Shown: piece by piece, positions 18,266 to 39,539 of the stretch
Layout: each line of letters opens with the position of its first letter
How positions within the stretch are numbered: position 1 is the stretch's first letter
NCBI GenBank assembly: GCA_035517655.1
Contig: DATIYJ010000036.1
Location: 1 to 59,261, forward strand
Reading direction: 5' to 3'
Length of the DNA stretch: 59,261 bases
From: Nitrospiria bacterium
GTDB taxonomy: Bacteria > Nitrospirota > Nitrospiria > JACQBZ01
The notes under the pieces: generated by a model
Database searches by the model: none
Told to the model about the DNA's origin: nothing
The model's input: the letters and a program-made list of their open reading frames with translations, nothing else
Made by a program: the position numbers and the translations under genes

Positions 18266-19642
18266 TTATATTCCCGCGGCAACCCCGATGGATTCGTCAA
18301 GGATCGAAATCATCTTTCTCAACTGAGGGATCGTGACCGACAGCGGCGGCAGGAGCGGAACGACGTTTCCAAGCGGCCGGAGGATCATTCCGCGTTTTAA
18401 GGCCTCCTTGGCCACGCGATAGCCCCATCGCTCTTCCAAAGGATACGGTTCTTTCGTGGGCCGATCCTTAACCAACTCCACCGCCGCGATCAGACCGATT
18501 TGACGAATATCCCCCACGTGCGGATGACGCCAGAGCGGTTTCAATCCATCGGCCAACGCCCTGATCTTGGGTCGGAGTCGCGACAGGACCCGTTCCCGGT
18601 CAAAGACGTCAAGACTGGCCAATGCGACCGCGCACCCGAGCGGATTGCCGGTATAGCTGTGGCCGTGAAAAAAGGTCTTGAATTCCCCGTACCCGCCTAA
18701 AAAAGCGTCATAGATTTCCCGAGTCGCCAGCGTGGCCGCCAGCGGCAGATAGCCTCCCGTGAGACCTTTCGCGACGGCCATCAGATCCGGGGTTACTCCT
18801 TCATGCTCGCAGGCAAACATCGTTCCGGTCCGCCCGAAGCCGGTGAAAACCTCGTCCGCGATCAAGAGACTGTGATAACGCGTGCAGAGGTCACGGATCC
18901 GTTTTAAGTATCCCGGCGGCCAGGTCAACATTCCGGCCGCGCCCTGTATCAGCGGCTCGATAACCACGGCCGCAATCTCATCATGATGTTCGGACAAAAC
19001 CCTCTCGACTTCATCCCCGCAGGCCAGGCGGCATTCCGGGAAGGTTTTATTTAGGAAACATCGATAGCAGTACGGAGCGCCGACCTTGTAGGTCGGAAAT
19101 AAAAGCGGCGAATAGAGGCCGTGAAACAACTCAATCCCGCCGAGGCTGACCGAGCCGATGGTGTCACCATGGTAGGCGTTGTTCAGCGACAAGAATTTTG
19201 TCTTGCGTGCCTTTCCCCGATGGCGCCAGTACTGCAACGCGATCTTGAGCGCGACCTCCACGGCGGTCGAGCCGTTGTCCGAGAAAAAAACCTTCGTCAA
19301 TCCGGGCGGAGCCAGCGTCACAAGTTTCTTCGCGAGCCGGATCGCCGGCCGGTTCGTCAGGCCGAGGAGCGTGGAGTGGGCGATTTTATCGATCTGGTTT
19401 TTCAGCGCGCGGTCCAGCGCGGCTTTTCGATGGCCGTGCAGGTTCACCCAGATGGATGAGACAGCGTCCAGATATCGTTTCCCGTAAACGTCGTAAAGAT
19501 AAACGCCCTTTCCGCGTTCAATAATAAGCGGCGGTTCCTTTTCCCATTCGGCCATCTGGGTAAAGGGATGCCAGATGTAGCGCCGTGCCTCCTCTTCCAG
19601 GCTTTCAATTCGGTCCCGATTCCGGCTCGATGTCTTTTTCAT
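18266..19642 (-). CDS. bioA: Adenosylmethionine-8-amino-7-oxononanoate aminotransferase
   Basis: 458 aa, class III aminotransferase. It converts KAPA to DAPA in biotin synthesis, using S-adenosylmethionine as amino donor. BioA-specific stretches are IWHPFTQM near the N-terminus, SSIWVNLHGHR, FFSDNGSTAVEVALK, the PLP-phosphate region NNAYHGDTIGSVSLGG, LIADEVFTGFGRTG, and VAKGLTGG with the PLP lysine at residue 292, then FFHGHSYTGNPLGCA. No other biotin genes are adjacent. The ATG is 8 nt from a TATAAT box on the same strand, so the mRNA may be nearly leaderless. Confidence 0.94.
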   Translation of the reverse strand: MKKTSSRNRDRIESLEEEARRYIWHPFTQMAEWEKEPPLIIERGKGVYLYDVYGKRYLDAVSSIWVNLHGHRKAALDRALKNQIDKIAHSTLLGLTNRPAIRLAKKLVTLAPPGLTKVFFSDNGSTAVEVALKIALQYWRHRGKARKTKFLSLNNAYHGDTIGSVSLGGIELFHGLYSPLLFPTYKVGAPYCYRCFLNKTFPECRLACGDEVERVLSEHHDEIAAVVIEPLIQGAAGMLTWPPGYLKRIRDLCTRYHSLLIADEVFTGFGRTGTMFACEHEGVTPDLMAVAKGLTGGYLPLAATLATREIYDAFLGGYGEFKTFFHGHSYTGNPLGCAVALASLDVFDRERVLSRLRPKIRALADGLKPLWRHPHVGDIRQIGLIAAVELVKDRPTKEPYPLEERWGYRVAKEALKRGMILRPLGNVVPLLPPLSVTIPQLRKMISILDESIGVAAGI

Positions 19643-26320: not shown

Positions 26321-26383
26321 TGGTATAACTTGAACAGCAAGCATTTTAAGTTGCTTGACTCTTGATGCCTCTTCGCTTATAAC
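26321..26383 (+). promoter_or_regulatory. Tandem promoter region of ribD
   Basis: The downstream promoter is TTGACT (26355-26360), 17 nt, TATAAC (26378-26383), ending 11 nt before the ribD ATG. An upstream extended -10 element, TGG-TATAAC, lies at 26321-26329. A 6-bp dyad (CAAGCA, 8-nt loop, TGCTTG, 26338-26357) overlaps the -35 box and could be an operator or the tail of a ppdK terminator. I see no FMN riboswitch and no Shine-Dalgarno. Confidence 0.55.
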
Positions 26384-26394
26384 AAGCGCAGGGT

Positions 26395-27507
26395 ATGTCG
26401 AAAAATCCTCTTACAGCAGATGAGACCTTCATGCGCCGGGCGCTGGAATTGGCGGAACGGGCGGCGGGCCGGACGAGCCCCAATCCGATGGTCGGAGCCG
26501 TCGTGGTCAAGTCCGGACGGATCGTCGCCGAAGGGCATCACCGCCGGGCGGGCGGACCGCATGCCGAGGCCGTCGCCTTGAGAAAGGCCGGTCCCCGGGC
26601 CACGGGCGCCACGCTCTATCTGAACCTCGAACCCTGCTGCCATCTCGATAAACGCACCCCGCCCTGTGTTCCGTTCATCATCAAACGTCGGATCCGAAGA
26701 ATCGTCATCGGGATGCGGGACCCCAATCCCAAGGTGAACGGAAGGGGGATCGCGATGCTGCGGCGAGCAAGGGTTCAAGTCGTGGAAGGGGTCTTAAGAC
26801 GGGAAGCGTTACGGCTCAACGAGGTTTATGTCAAGTACGTGACGACCGGCCGGCCGTTCGTGATCTCGAAAACCGCGATGAGCCTGGACGGAAAGATCGC
26901 CTCTGAGCAAGGTTCCGCCACGCGGATCACGGGGGAGAAAGCCCGGAGGGAAGGACATCGTCTCCGAAATGGGTCGGACGCCGTTCTGGTTGGAATCAAT
27001 ACCGTTCTGACGGATGATCCGCGGCTTTCGACCCGCCTTCCCAAAATAAAAGGACGCGACGCGGTCCGCGTCGTTGTGGACAGCACATTGAAGATTCCTC
27101 CCACCGCTCGTCTATTGACGCAGAAATCATGCGCCGGAACCATCCTGGCTACGACCCGCCGTGCCCATCCGGACCGGGTACGGGCGATCGAGTGGGCGGG
27201 CGCGACGGTCTGGATCGTCAAGGATCAGAACGGTCGTGTCAGCCTTCCGGAGCTGATGAGTCGATTGGGCGAAATCGGGATCACCAGCGTTCTGATCGAA
27301 GGCGGGGGCGAGTTGAACGCCTCGGCCCTTCGTTCCGGCATCGTGGACAAACTCGTCTGGTTCATCGCGCCGATCGTCGTCGGACGCAAAGACGCCGTCG
27401 GCGTCGTGGATGGACCGGTGACCGACGGGCCGGGAGAAGTCCTCCCGATCCGTGACCTTTCGATGACGCGGGTCGGCGATGATTTCATGCTGGAGGGGTA
27501 TCTGTGA
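26395..27507 (+). CDS. ribD: Bifunctional diaminohydroxyphosphoribosylaminopyrimidine deaminase / reductase
   Basis: 370 aa, two-domain RibD. The N-terminal cytidine-deaminase-like domain has SPNPMVGAVVV, the zinc site GGPHAEAVAL, and EPCCHLDKRTPPC with the two Cys ligands. The C-terminal DHFR-like reductase has KTAMSLDGKIA, GSDAVLVGINTVLTDDPRLS, and LIEGGGELNASAL. It performs the second and third steps of riboflavin synthesis. The ATG at 26395 lies only 11 nt behind a good -10 box and has no Shine-Dalgarno. The last 4 nt overlap the next gene (GTGA). Riboflavin synthase lies about 7 kb downstream rather than adjacent. Confidence 0.95.
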   Translation: MSKNPLTADETFMRRALELAERAAGRTSPNPMVGAVVVKSGRIVAEGHHRRAGGPHAEAVALRKAGPRATGATLYLNLEPCCHLDKRTPPCVPFIIKRRIRRIVIGMRDPNPKVNGRGIAMLRRARVQVVEGVLRREALRLNEVYVKYVTTGRPFVISKTAMSLDGKIASEQGSATRITGEKARREGHRLRNGSDAVLVGINTVLTDDPRLSTRLPKIKGRDAVRVVVDSTLKIPPTARLLTQKSCAGTILATTRRAHPDRVRAIEWAGATVWIVKDQNGRVSLPELMSRLGEIGITSVLIEGGGELNASALRSGIVDKLVWFIAPIVVGRKDAVGVVDGPVTDGPGEVLPIRDLSMTRVGDDFMLEGYL

Positions 27508-33334: not shown

Positions 33335-34629
33335 AGCTCGGCATTCGGGAAAAGTTGCTCGGATCGTTTCTCGCGTTCAGCGTTATTTTTATCGTCTGCT
33401 TGGGCATTATTCTGCTGGAGGTGCAAGACATCGAGGTGAGGATGGGAGACGTCCAGCGAGAAGCGCACAAGGTCGAGTTGACGGATCATCTCCAGTTGCT
33501 CCTCCACATGTTCCTTCAGCCGGCCAACAATTATCTGATCTCGGGCGATGTCAAGGAAAGGGATAATTTCGACCAATTGAGCAACGAGATATCTCAGATC
33601 ATTAAAGAACTCCAAACGTATCACGGAGACCATCGATGGGAAATGTTGTCCGGCGCGCTGAACCACGATGTTCTCCGGTTGAGCGAGATGCTGGTCACAA
33701 TTTTGTTTACGGATCGGCCCGTTGGAAACCCGCGGGACGCGCAGTTGATTCAAGAGGCGACCGTTTTTTCAGGGAGTTTGATTAAAAAAGCGGACGCGTT
33801 TCATGATCTTTCCGAACAAGAAATGCTTCGAATGGTTCACGACGCACAATCCAGGAGTGAGAGGGTTAATTTCGTTTTCTATGGAAGCTTGGGAACGACC
33901 GTGCTTTTTTTTATTTTGCTCTCGATCTACCTTTCGCGGTCCGTGATCCGGCCGATCTTGGATCTCCATCGGGGCGCGCAGACCGTCGGTCAGGGCAACC
34001 TGGATTACCGATTGACGATCAAGACCAAAGATGAAATTGAAAATCTGGCCGGTGAATTCAATCAGATGGTAGAATCCATCTCCAGCATGAAGAAAGATCT
34101 CGATAAAAAAATCGAGCTGACCCAGCAACTGGCCATCACCGATTCATTGACGGGTCTGTACAATCGCCGCTTTTTCATGGAGAAATTAAGTGAGGAGGTC
34201 AAACGAAACGAGAGGTTCAACCATCCCATCTCCATTATTCTTGTGGATGTCGACGATTTTAAGGTTTACAACGATACCCACGGGCACTTGACCGGGGACG
34301 ATTTGTTAAGAAGCCTGGCGGTGATTTTGAAGAAACACGTCCGGAGCGTGGACTTCGTCTGCCGAATCGGCGGAGAAGAATTCATGGTGATCCTTCCCGA
34401 AACAAACCACACCGCCGCTCTGAAAATTGCAGAGGGGTTGAGACAGGCGGTGGAGCAGTACCCGTTCGCCCATGAAGAGATGCAACCGTCCGGAAAACTG
34501 ACGATCAGTCTGGGCGTCGCCACCAGCGTGAAGGGGGAAAAAGATCTGCTGAAACTGATCAAGTCGGCGGATGACGCCCTTTATCATGCGAAGAGGACGG
34601 GCAAGAACAAGATCGGAATGCTCAGTTGA
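33331..34629 (+). CDS. Membrane diguanylate cyclase (HAMP-GGDEF)
   Basis: 432 aa from the GTG at 33331, which overlaps the preceding stop by 4 nt (GTGA). The first membrane segment is near residues 9-29. A periplasmic sensor of about 160 residues rich in helices follows, then a second membrane segment (TVLFFILLSIYLS), a HAMP domain (VIRPILDLHRGAQTVGQGNLDYRL) and a GGDEF domain starting TDSLTGLYNRRFF. The active-site motif is GGEEF at 347-351, and an intact RxxD inhibitory site (RSVD, 338-341) lies five residues before it, so the enzyme should make c-di-GMP from GTP and be feedback inhibited. It probably senses the small binding protein encoded just upstream. Confidence 0.93.
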   Translation: MKLGIREKLLGSFLAFSVIFIVCLGIILLEVQDIEVRMGDVQREAHKVELTDHLQLLLHMFLQPANNYLISGDVKERDNFDQLSNEISQIIKELQTYHGDHRWEMLSGALNHDVLRLSEMLVTILFTDRPVGNPRDAQLIQEATVFSGSLIKKADAFHDLSEQEMLRMVHDAQSRSERVNFVFYGSLGTTVLFFILLSIYLSRSVIRPILDLHRGAQTVGQGNLDYRLTIKTKDEIENLAGEFNQMVESISSMKKDLDKKIELTQQLAITDSLTGLYNRRFFMEKLSEEVKRNERFNHPISIILVDVDDFKVYNDTHGHLTGDDLLRSLAVILKKHVRSVDFVCRIGGEEFMVILPETNHTAALKIAEGLRQAVEQYPFAHEEMQPSGKLTISLGVATSVKGEKDLLKLIKSADDALYHAKRTGKNKIGMLS

Positions 34630-34692
34630 TTTTTCCTCATCGACGGACGTTCGTCGCTCGAAAACTACCATCCAGCACCATCCCGCCCGGTT

Positions 34693-34722
34693 TTGACAGC
34701 TCCAAACAATCTTTGGTATGAT
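34693..34722 (+). promoter_or_regulatory. Near-consensus promoter abutting the ribE start
   Basis: TTGACA and TATGAT are separated by 18 nt. The -10 box ends at 34722 and the ATG is at 34729, six bases later, so transcription is expected to begin at or next to the A of the ATG. There is no ribosome binding site between them. Confidence 0.72.
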
Positions 34723-34728
34723 GGATTC

Positions 34729-35379
34729 ATGTTTACCGGAATCATTGAAGAGATGGGCGTCGTCCGGGCTTTCAACCGGGATAAGAAGTCCGGCCGATTG
34801 TCCATCCTGGCCAAAGCCGTCCTGGAGGATTTGGCCTTGGGGGACAGCGTCACCGTGAACGGGGTCTGTCTGACCGTGACGGAAAAGAGTGAAGGGGAAT
34901 TCTCGGCGGATGTCTCGCCCGAAACACTCCTCATCACCAACATGGATTCCTTAAACGTGGGGGATGCCGTCAATCTGGAGCGCGCCGTTCGGGTCAACAG
35001 CCGCCTCGGCGGTCATTTGGTGACCGGGCATATCGACGGCGTCGGCCGGATCAGGGACCGCCGCCAGGAGGACGAGGCGATCTTTTTCACAATCGAAATC
35101 CCGAAGGACCTGCTGCGGTATTGCGTCAGGAAAGGATCGATTGCCGTGGACGGGATCAGCCTGACGATCAATCAGGTATCCGACCGGGATATACAGGTCG
35201 CGATTATTCCCCACACCGCCAAAGCGACCACGCTCGGGTTAAAGGGCGTCAACGGCCGTGTGAATATCGAGTGCGATCTGATCGGAAAATATTTGGAACG
35301 CCTTCTTCAGGAACGCGGTTCGGAAGAATCTCCGCAAAAAGTCGATCGGGACTATCTTAGGCGTCGAGGATTACTATAG
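34729..35379 (+). CDS. ribE: Riboflavin synthase, alpha subunit
   Basis: 216 aa. It starts with the family hallmark MFTGIIEEMGVV and shows the typical duplicated lumazine-binding barrel: LGDSVTVNGVCLTV and SRLGGHLVTGHIDGVG in the first half, KGSIAVDGISLTIN and IPHTAKATTLG in the second. It dismutates two 6,7-dimethyl-8-ribityllumazine molecules to riboflavin and a pyrimidine. The ATG at 34729 is fixed by the conserved N-terminus; an upstream in-frame start would lie within the promoter. Lumazine synthase and RibBA are not in the window. The mRNA is predicted to be leaderless. Confidence 0.96.
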   Translation: MFTGIIEEMGVVRAFNRDKKSGRLSILAKAVLEDLALGDSVTVNGVCLTVTEKSEGEFSADVSPETLLITNMDSLNVGDAVNLERAVRVNSRLGGHLVTGHIDGVGRIRDRRQEDEAIFFTIEIPKDLLRYCVRKGSIAVDGISLTINQVSDRDIQVAIIPHTAKATTLGLKGVNGRVNIECDLIGKYLERLLQERGSEESPQKVDRDYLRRRGLL

Positions 35380-35463: not shown

Positions 35464-35479
35464 TAGCGTCACATAACAC

Positions 35480-35622
35480 ATTCAGGCCAAGGGAACCCCG
35501 TTGAAATCGGGGGCGGTCCCGCCGCTGTGAGTGGGGACGATGCCCGCATTAAAGTCACTGTCCGACAACGATGGGAAGACGCGGGCGGAGGACGATCCAC
35601 AAGCCAGAAGACCTGCCTGAAT
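35480..35622 (+). promoter_or_regulatory. Cobalamin riboswitch 1
   Basis: Closing stem P1 pairs ATTCAGG (35480-35486) with CCTGAAT (35616-35622). Inside are the conserved core GGGAACCCC-type segment, GCCGCTGTGAGTGGGGACGA, a second conserved AAGTCACTGTC segment, and the 3' B12 box AAGCCAGAAGACCTGCC. These are the class hallmarks of adenosylcobalamin riboswitches. It lies between a strong promoter and btuF, so B12 should repress the uptake operon. Confidence 0.93.
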
Positions 35623-35689
35623 GCGCGGCTCGTTTCCTTTCGATACAAGAGAGAAACGGGCTCACCTTAGGGTGAAGAAGCAGGGTGCA

Positions 35690-39283: not shown

Positions 39284-39295
39284 ATTTAAAACGGT

Positions 39296-39494
39296 CGGAT
39301 GGATTCCGGGAACTCCGTGATTCCGAGCTTAGGCGAGGAAGAATCGGAGACGGGGCCGCCACTGTGAGCGGGGACGAATCCCCGGGTATGCCACTGTCTT
39401 GAGAACGGGTTGGGAGGGGACAACAGAAGCCCTTCCAAAGAGACGGGAAGGCGGGGAGGAGAACGATCCGCAAGTCAGGAGACCGATCCATCCG
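39296..39494 (+). promoter_or_regulatory. Cobalamin riboswitch 2
   Basis: A 9-bp P1 stem pairs CGGATGGAT (39296-39304) with ATCCATCCG (39486-39494). The core contains GCCGCCACTGTGAGCGGGGACGA, a second TGCCACTGTCTTGAGA segment and the 3' box AAGTCAGGAGACC. A GAAGG/CCTTCC-rich variable arm lies at about 39426-39455. It precedes the TonB-dependent receptor gene, whose AAGGAGG lies 31 nt downstream of the P1 stem. Confidence 0.93.
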
Positions 39495-39539
39495 ATATAA
39501 ACGCCACGCATTCTTTTCGCAACCGGAAGGAGGTGCAGG

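Follow-up and report, generated by a model that had tools for sequence, protein, structure and literature searches.

A -10 box beside the start codon of ribE and a predicted leaderless mRNA in a bacterial family probably of the Nitrospirota

The riboflavin synthase gene ribE raises the question of whether its mRNA has a leader, since a promoter-like sequence ends only a few bases before its start codon. We analyzed this locus in a stretch of 59,261 nucleotides from a Nitrospiria bacterium (the whole stretch is called the window) and in related genomes. We estimate, at a probability of roughly 0.85, that ribE is read from its own promoter by the housekeeping sigma factor and that the first base of the mRNA is the A of the ATG or lies at most one or two bases before it, giving an mRNA that would have no 5' UTR and a translation start free of a Shine-Dalgarno sequence.

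We searched 40 related genomes for ribE and found it in 37. The family of the window (f1) contributes seven of the 40 (G000 to G006, G000 being the window's own genome, a fragmented assembly), and six of these have ribE; there was no match in G006, which is 69% complete.

The start codon and the promoter of ribE

The start codon of ribE was established independently of the promoter. The gene lies at 34729 to 35379 on the forward strand and encodes 216 amino acids. Two NCBIfam riboflavin synthase models match it from residue 1 (NF006767, 239 bits against a cut-off of 155; TIGR00187, 237 bits against 157), and homologous proteins also align with the product from its first residue. The first-pass annotation had fixed the start at the ATG at 34729 to 34731 from the MFTGIIEE beginning of the protein, and both the models and the relatives bear this out. 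The start codon is ATG in all six f1 genomes with ribE; outside the family there were 26 ATG and 3 GTG among 29 rows, a weak contrast.

Two other starts were considered and rejected. The one alternative in-frame start seen, a TTG at 34693 that opens the longest ORF, is cut off by a TGA in the same frame in L002 and L003 and does not share the ribE frame in L004 to L006, and the protein family begins with MFTGI. ATGs inside the -10 box are out of frame in G000 to G002 and in frame in G003 to G005, so the frame is not conserved. In the last three genomes (L260, L262, and L263) the gene caller had added four residues (MMQS, MMKS, and MMKR, as in MMQSMFTGI) by starting at these ATGs, and this N-terminal extension of riboflavin synthase is likely a misannotation.

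The sequence upstream of ribE resembles a sigma-70 promoter (TTGACA, 16 to 19 nt, and a TATAAT-like box). On the forward strand, the -35 hexamer TTGACA (34693 to 34698, 6 of 6 consensus bases) is separated by 18 nt from the -10 hexamer TATGAT (34717 to 34722, 5 of 6), for 11 of 12 consensus positions overall. The last three bases of the spacer are TGG (34714 to 34716), an extended -10 element with its TG at 34714 to 34715. The gap between the -10 box and the ATG, GGATTC (34723 to 34728), is 6 nt long and too short for a Shine-Dalgarno sequence. The near-consensus promoter described in the first pass, and the six bases it counted between the -10 box and the ATG, were thus both found exactly as described.

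We scanned the window with spacers of 16 to 19 nt, at least 5 of 6 matches in the -35 box, and the A and T of the -10 box fixed. Counting both strands of the 59 kb, no site other than the ribE promoter reached 11 of 12 matches. Sixty first-order Markov shuffles averaged 0.18 such sites per window, or 0.067 when an ATG 5 to 8 nt behind was also required. Sites with at least 9 of 12 matches were at chance level between 30000 and 40000 (4 found, 4.4 expected), and a bare 9 of 12 match is meaningless because such sites are no commoner than chance.

Where transcription of ribE begins

The position of the -10 box predicts that transcription starts at the start codon. Sigma-70 transcription usually begins 6 to 8 nt (about 7) downstream of the -10 box. 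The ribE -10 box ends at 34722, which puts the usual start on the ATG or at most one base from it; if the promoter is used, there would be no 5' UTR long enough for a Shine-Dalgarno sequence. The A at 34729 is the predicted transcription start, judged from this spacing. In the six f1 sequences, the last 25 nt ahead of the ribE ATG contain no GGAG, GAGG, or AGGA; L001 had one GGA trimer. The marks of a leaderless gene found at ribE are thus the placement of the -10 box, the independently fixed start, the absence of a Shine-Dalgarno core, and the ATG. The first-pass proposal that transcription begins at the ATG, with no room for a Shine-Dalgarno sequence, is supported by the spacing, by the lack of a core in those 25 nt, and by conservation in six genomes; from these data we infer the start site, the use of the promoter, and initiation on a 5'-terminal AUG. 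The housekeeping sigma factor would transcribe ribE from TTGACA-TATGAT, the mRNA would begin with AUG and lack a 5' UTR, and the ribosome would initiate on that terminal AUG without a Shine-Dalgarno sequence.

The ribE promoter is conserved throughout the family. TTGACA, 18 nt, TATGAT, and then ATG were kept in all six f1 ribE loci, which represent three genera, as was the TGG before the -10 box. The distance from the -10 box to the ATG was 6 nt in G000, G001, and G002 and 7 nt in G003, G004, and G005. All 12 hexamer columns and 8 of the 18 spacer columns were invariant; within the ribE coding sequence of the same six genomes, no more than 13 of the 63 fourfold-degenerate sites and 32 of the 216 codons were invariant. 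No conserved block was seen across the six genomes in the 60 nt that precede the -35 box (0 invariant columns after MAFFT alignment, 1 without gaps). The riboflavin synthase proteins of the six are 73-87% identical, and the closest named match in genome_contigs came from a Nitrospirae bacterium (L031, 59%). A second Nitrospirota record stood at 56%, with Bacillota and others close behind, which makes the phylum probable. Conservation of the hexamers is a stronger argument than the shuffle statistics that the predicted ribE promoter is real.

A very short leader is the alternative that survives best, although we consider it improbable. The promoter would be used as proposed, with transcription beginning 3 to 5 nt before the ATG. 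Such a leader would fit with a distance from the -10 box to the ATG that is 6 or 7 nt depending on the genus, and with the ribD promoter of the same genome, where a distance of 11 nt suggests a leader of about 4 nt. A start 3 to 5 nt upstream of the ATG would, however, be unusually close to the -10 box. Furthermore, counting from the -10 box in G000 to G002, position seven is the A of the ATG; this is a preferred transcription start position, and the base is a purine. A leader of 1 to 2 nt is possible, above all in G003 to G005 with their distance of 7 nt.

The ribD gene itself (26395 to 27507, forward strand, identified by family search) ends approximately 7.2 kb upstream of ribE in G000. Its promoter, TTGACT-17-TATAAC (within 26355 to 26397, forward strand), ends 11 nt before the ATG at 26395, and similar promoters precede ribD in G001 to G005 at varying distances from the start. 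This arrangement suggests that the ribD mRNA of the window has a very short leader.

Transcription from upstream of the promoter is slightly less probable still. The main ribE transcript might come from read-through of the upstream gene or from a promoter inside it, and TTGACA-TATGAT would then be minor or a chance match. In G000 to G002, a GGDEF-type gene lies upstream on the same strand as ribE and ends 78 to 101 nt before it, and read-through from this gene into ribE is possible; in the window, the scan showed no terminator-like site from 34629 to 34729. Elsewhere in the family the neighbors differ: there is a reductase-like gene divergent from ribE in G003 and G005 and an MFS-type gene on the same strand in G004 (these labels are our reading of the sequences; ribD and ribE alone were checked against families). 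The promoter accompanies ribE under all three upstream neighbors with identical hexamers in the six genomes, which argues against an upstream start, and read-through is impossible in G003 and G005 because the neighbor is divergent. In the 301-bp stretches scanned in G003, G005, and G004, there were no other promoter-like sites on the ribE strand. In all six genomes, a longer transcript would also have no Shine-Dalgarno core within the last 25 nt ahead of the ATG. That the ribE promoter is a chance resemblance is extremely unlikely: sites with at least 9 of 12 matches are as frequent as in shuffled windows, but this is an 11 of 12 site (0.18 expected per window) whose 12 hexamer columns are all invariant, against 13 of 63 fourfold sites. 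We therefore retain a start at or within one or two bases of the ATG as the preferred reading.

Translation starts elsewhere in the genome

Leaderless translation does not appear to be the general habit of this genome, and we rejected that explanation for ribE. Among 350 genes that a simple gene caller predicted over 394 kb, we found a peak of Shine-Dalgarno cores around -12 to -9 and a small peak of TATNNT at -15 to -12. The underlying 20 stretches were not random, in that eight had been picked for holding a promoter match; these were kept in the 350-gene profile and dropped from the counts that follow, which come from 12 stretches and the window, not picked by promoter match (244 kb, 211 genes). 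A Shine-Dalgarno core was present at -16 to -5 in 67 of the 211 genes, compared to 31 of 211 at a control place, and TATNNT was present at -15 to -12 in 8 of 211, compared to 2.6 expected from control bins. The 3' end of the 16S rRNA of the window's genome carries GGATCACCTCC; the variable-spacer pattern used in this search matched in one of the six genomes tried, the window's own. We conclude from these results that the genome is of the Shine-Dalgarno type and has a predicted minority of leaderless genes. Such genes are few, and there is therefore no general habit to invoke for ribE.

Control of ribE by an FMN riboswitch was also rejected, as the RF00050 aptamer had no hits in eight genomes searched, four of them from f1, and none in the window at the gathering score. 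Of 14 control genomes, 7 were positive. Cobalamin riboswitches (RF00174) are present in the window at 35467 to 35634 (100 bits) and 39284 to 39505 (80 bits). The genes behind them look like a putative set for uptake of vitamin B12 and a putative TonB-dependent receptor.

Starts adjacent to a -10 box were found at other genes of the family. We counted matches to TTGACN{18,20}TATNNTN{5,8}ATG, with control distances of 11-14 nt and 24-27 nt and with reversed-pattern controls. In G000 to G005, there were 22, 23, 21, 24, 15, and 21 matches at 5-8 nt (total 126; reversed control 3), 15, 11, 16, 9, 12, and 11 at 11-14 nt (total 74; reversed control 5), and 14, 19, 10, 16, 10, and 12 at 24-27 nt (total 81; reversed control 3). 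The 5-8 nt bin was highest in each of the six genomes, with a moderate excess of 1.6- to 1.7-fold; in the comparison of 126 with 74 or 81, orthologues are not independent and some of the 11-14 nt matches are second ATGs behind 5-8 nt ones. The control-distance bins also hold real promoters, because the reversed-pattern counts were far lower (3, 5, and 3).

The ATGs at 5-8 nt tended to open reading frames. In G000, 18 of 22 opened at least 60 codons, compared to 5 of the 13 examined at 11-14 nt (Fisher p 0.024), where the 13 come from 15 matches, the other two being second ATGs behind a 5-8 nt match, and L243 (54 codons, running off its contig) was scored as a miss. At least 60 codons were opened by 68 of 88 class ATGs in G000, G001, G003, and G005; the 88 are the distinct strings from 90 matches, with the ribE loci of G001 and G005 absent, and G002, G004, and G006 were read in part.

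Eleven orthologous groups, defined by protein similarity, share the pattern in at least three genomes. These are ribE (six genomes), hisS, a DUF255 protein, a rhodanese, a DsrE-like protein, a YacP-like NYN protein, an MBL-fold protein, and four unnamed groups (hisS was named by NCBIfam, the five from DUF255 to MBL-fold by Pfam); L184, from one of the unnamed groups, had no Pfam hit. Six further groups share it in two genomes, including recJ and a class II glutamine amidotransferase protein, both named from their G000 members. The pattern also occurs in eight genomes from other families of the same taxonomic class (G007, 7; G011, 10; G013, 14; G018, 11; G023, 26; G028, 8; G036, 23; G039, 11), counts that were made without a control distance and for which the reversed controls came to 6 in all.

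Two genes of riboflavin and biotin synthesis have similarly placed boxes. In G023 and G036, both of family f9, ribD and ribE stand on the same strand in a tight row with a single gene between them. Before ribD there is TTGACA, an 18-nt spacer, and TATAGT, followed after 6 or 7 nt by an in-frame ATG (G036:C1:3636715-3636753; G023:C18:32025-32064), and this ribD, at the head of the row, looks leaderless. In the window, bioA (18266 to 19642, reverse strand, NCBIfam) has a promoter, TTTACG-17-TATAAT (about 19679 to 19651), that ends 8 nt before its ATG. Among its orthologues, TATAAT lies 9 nt before the ATG in G001, G004, and G005 and 8 nt before an upstream ATG in G003. We consider bioA a second, nearly leaderless candidate in the window.

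Based on the pattern counts, ribE is a predicted member of a minority class of -10-adjacent starts in its genome. Within f1, ribE lies apart from ribD with its own promoter and would be one of a small conserved leaderless set. It is conceivable, but we think doubtful, that f1 keeps a set of housekeeping genes leaderless or nearly so and that this enables their separate translation, with the balance of initiation factors as one possible means. The proposed set would include ribE, hisS, and the rhodanese, DUF255, YacP-like, and MBL-fold genes, and, with distances of 8-9 nt, also recJ, an alanine dehydrogenase/PNT-like gene, and bioA.

Comparison with known systems

Reports of leaderless genes in this phylum were sought in the literature. 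A search on leaderless genes and transcription start sites combined with Nitrospira, Nitrospirae, and Leptospirillum gave no recognizable report, as judged largely from listings. The word start Nitrospir is absent from the main text of Zheng et al. 2011 (PMC3160421) and from the main text of PMC5397173, which compares non-Shine-Dalgarno genes in 260 prokaryotes. Nitrospirota appear among the anti-Shine-Dalgarno types in PMC10783764.

Comparison of the ribE loci lends support to the presence of leaderless genes in an uncultured family that probably belongs to the Nitrospirota. A conserved -10 box beside the start codon can serve to revise annotated starts and to predict individual leaderless genes, even in genomes where only a few genes are of this kind.

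Bacterial genes that lack a leader and have a -10 box next to the start are already known, and ribE adds a predicted case. Riboflavin genes controlled by the FMN riboswitch (RF00050) encode the same biosynthetic enzyme; the riboswitch needs a leader, and all 8 genomes searched for it lacked a hit. In many bacteria, leaderless (TA-led) genes are described as marked by a Pribnow-like TANNNT located some 12 bp ahead of the translation start (Zheng et al. 2011, PMC3160421). Like these, the ribE TATGAT starts at -12; unlike their description there, ribE has a full TTGACA -35 box, and the argument is carried by conservation among relatives. In Deinococcus-Thermus, a -10 region that lies a few bp ahead of the ORF was shown experimentally to drive leaderless mRNA and is described as common in the phylum, and -10 motifs can fall inside called ORFs with misannotated starts (Life Sci Alliance 2025, PMC12340547). 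The ribE -10 box is likewise a few bp before the start and lies inside called ORFs in G003 to G005. In contrast to the situation described for Deinococcus-Thermus (PMC12340547), the -10-adjacent starts here are a predicted minority class in a genome that uses Shine-Dalgarno sequences, and a consensus -35 box is present.
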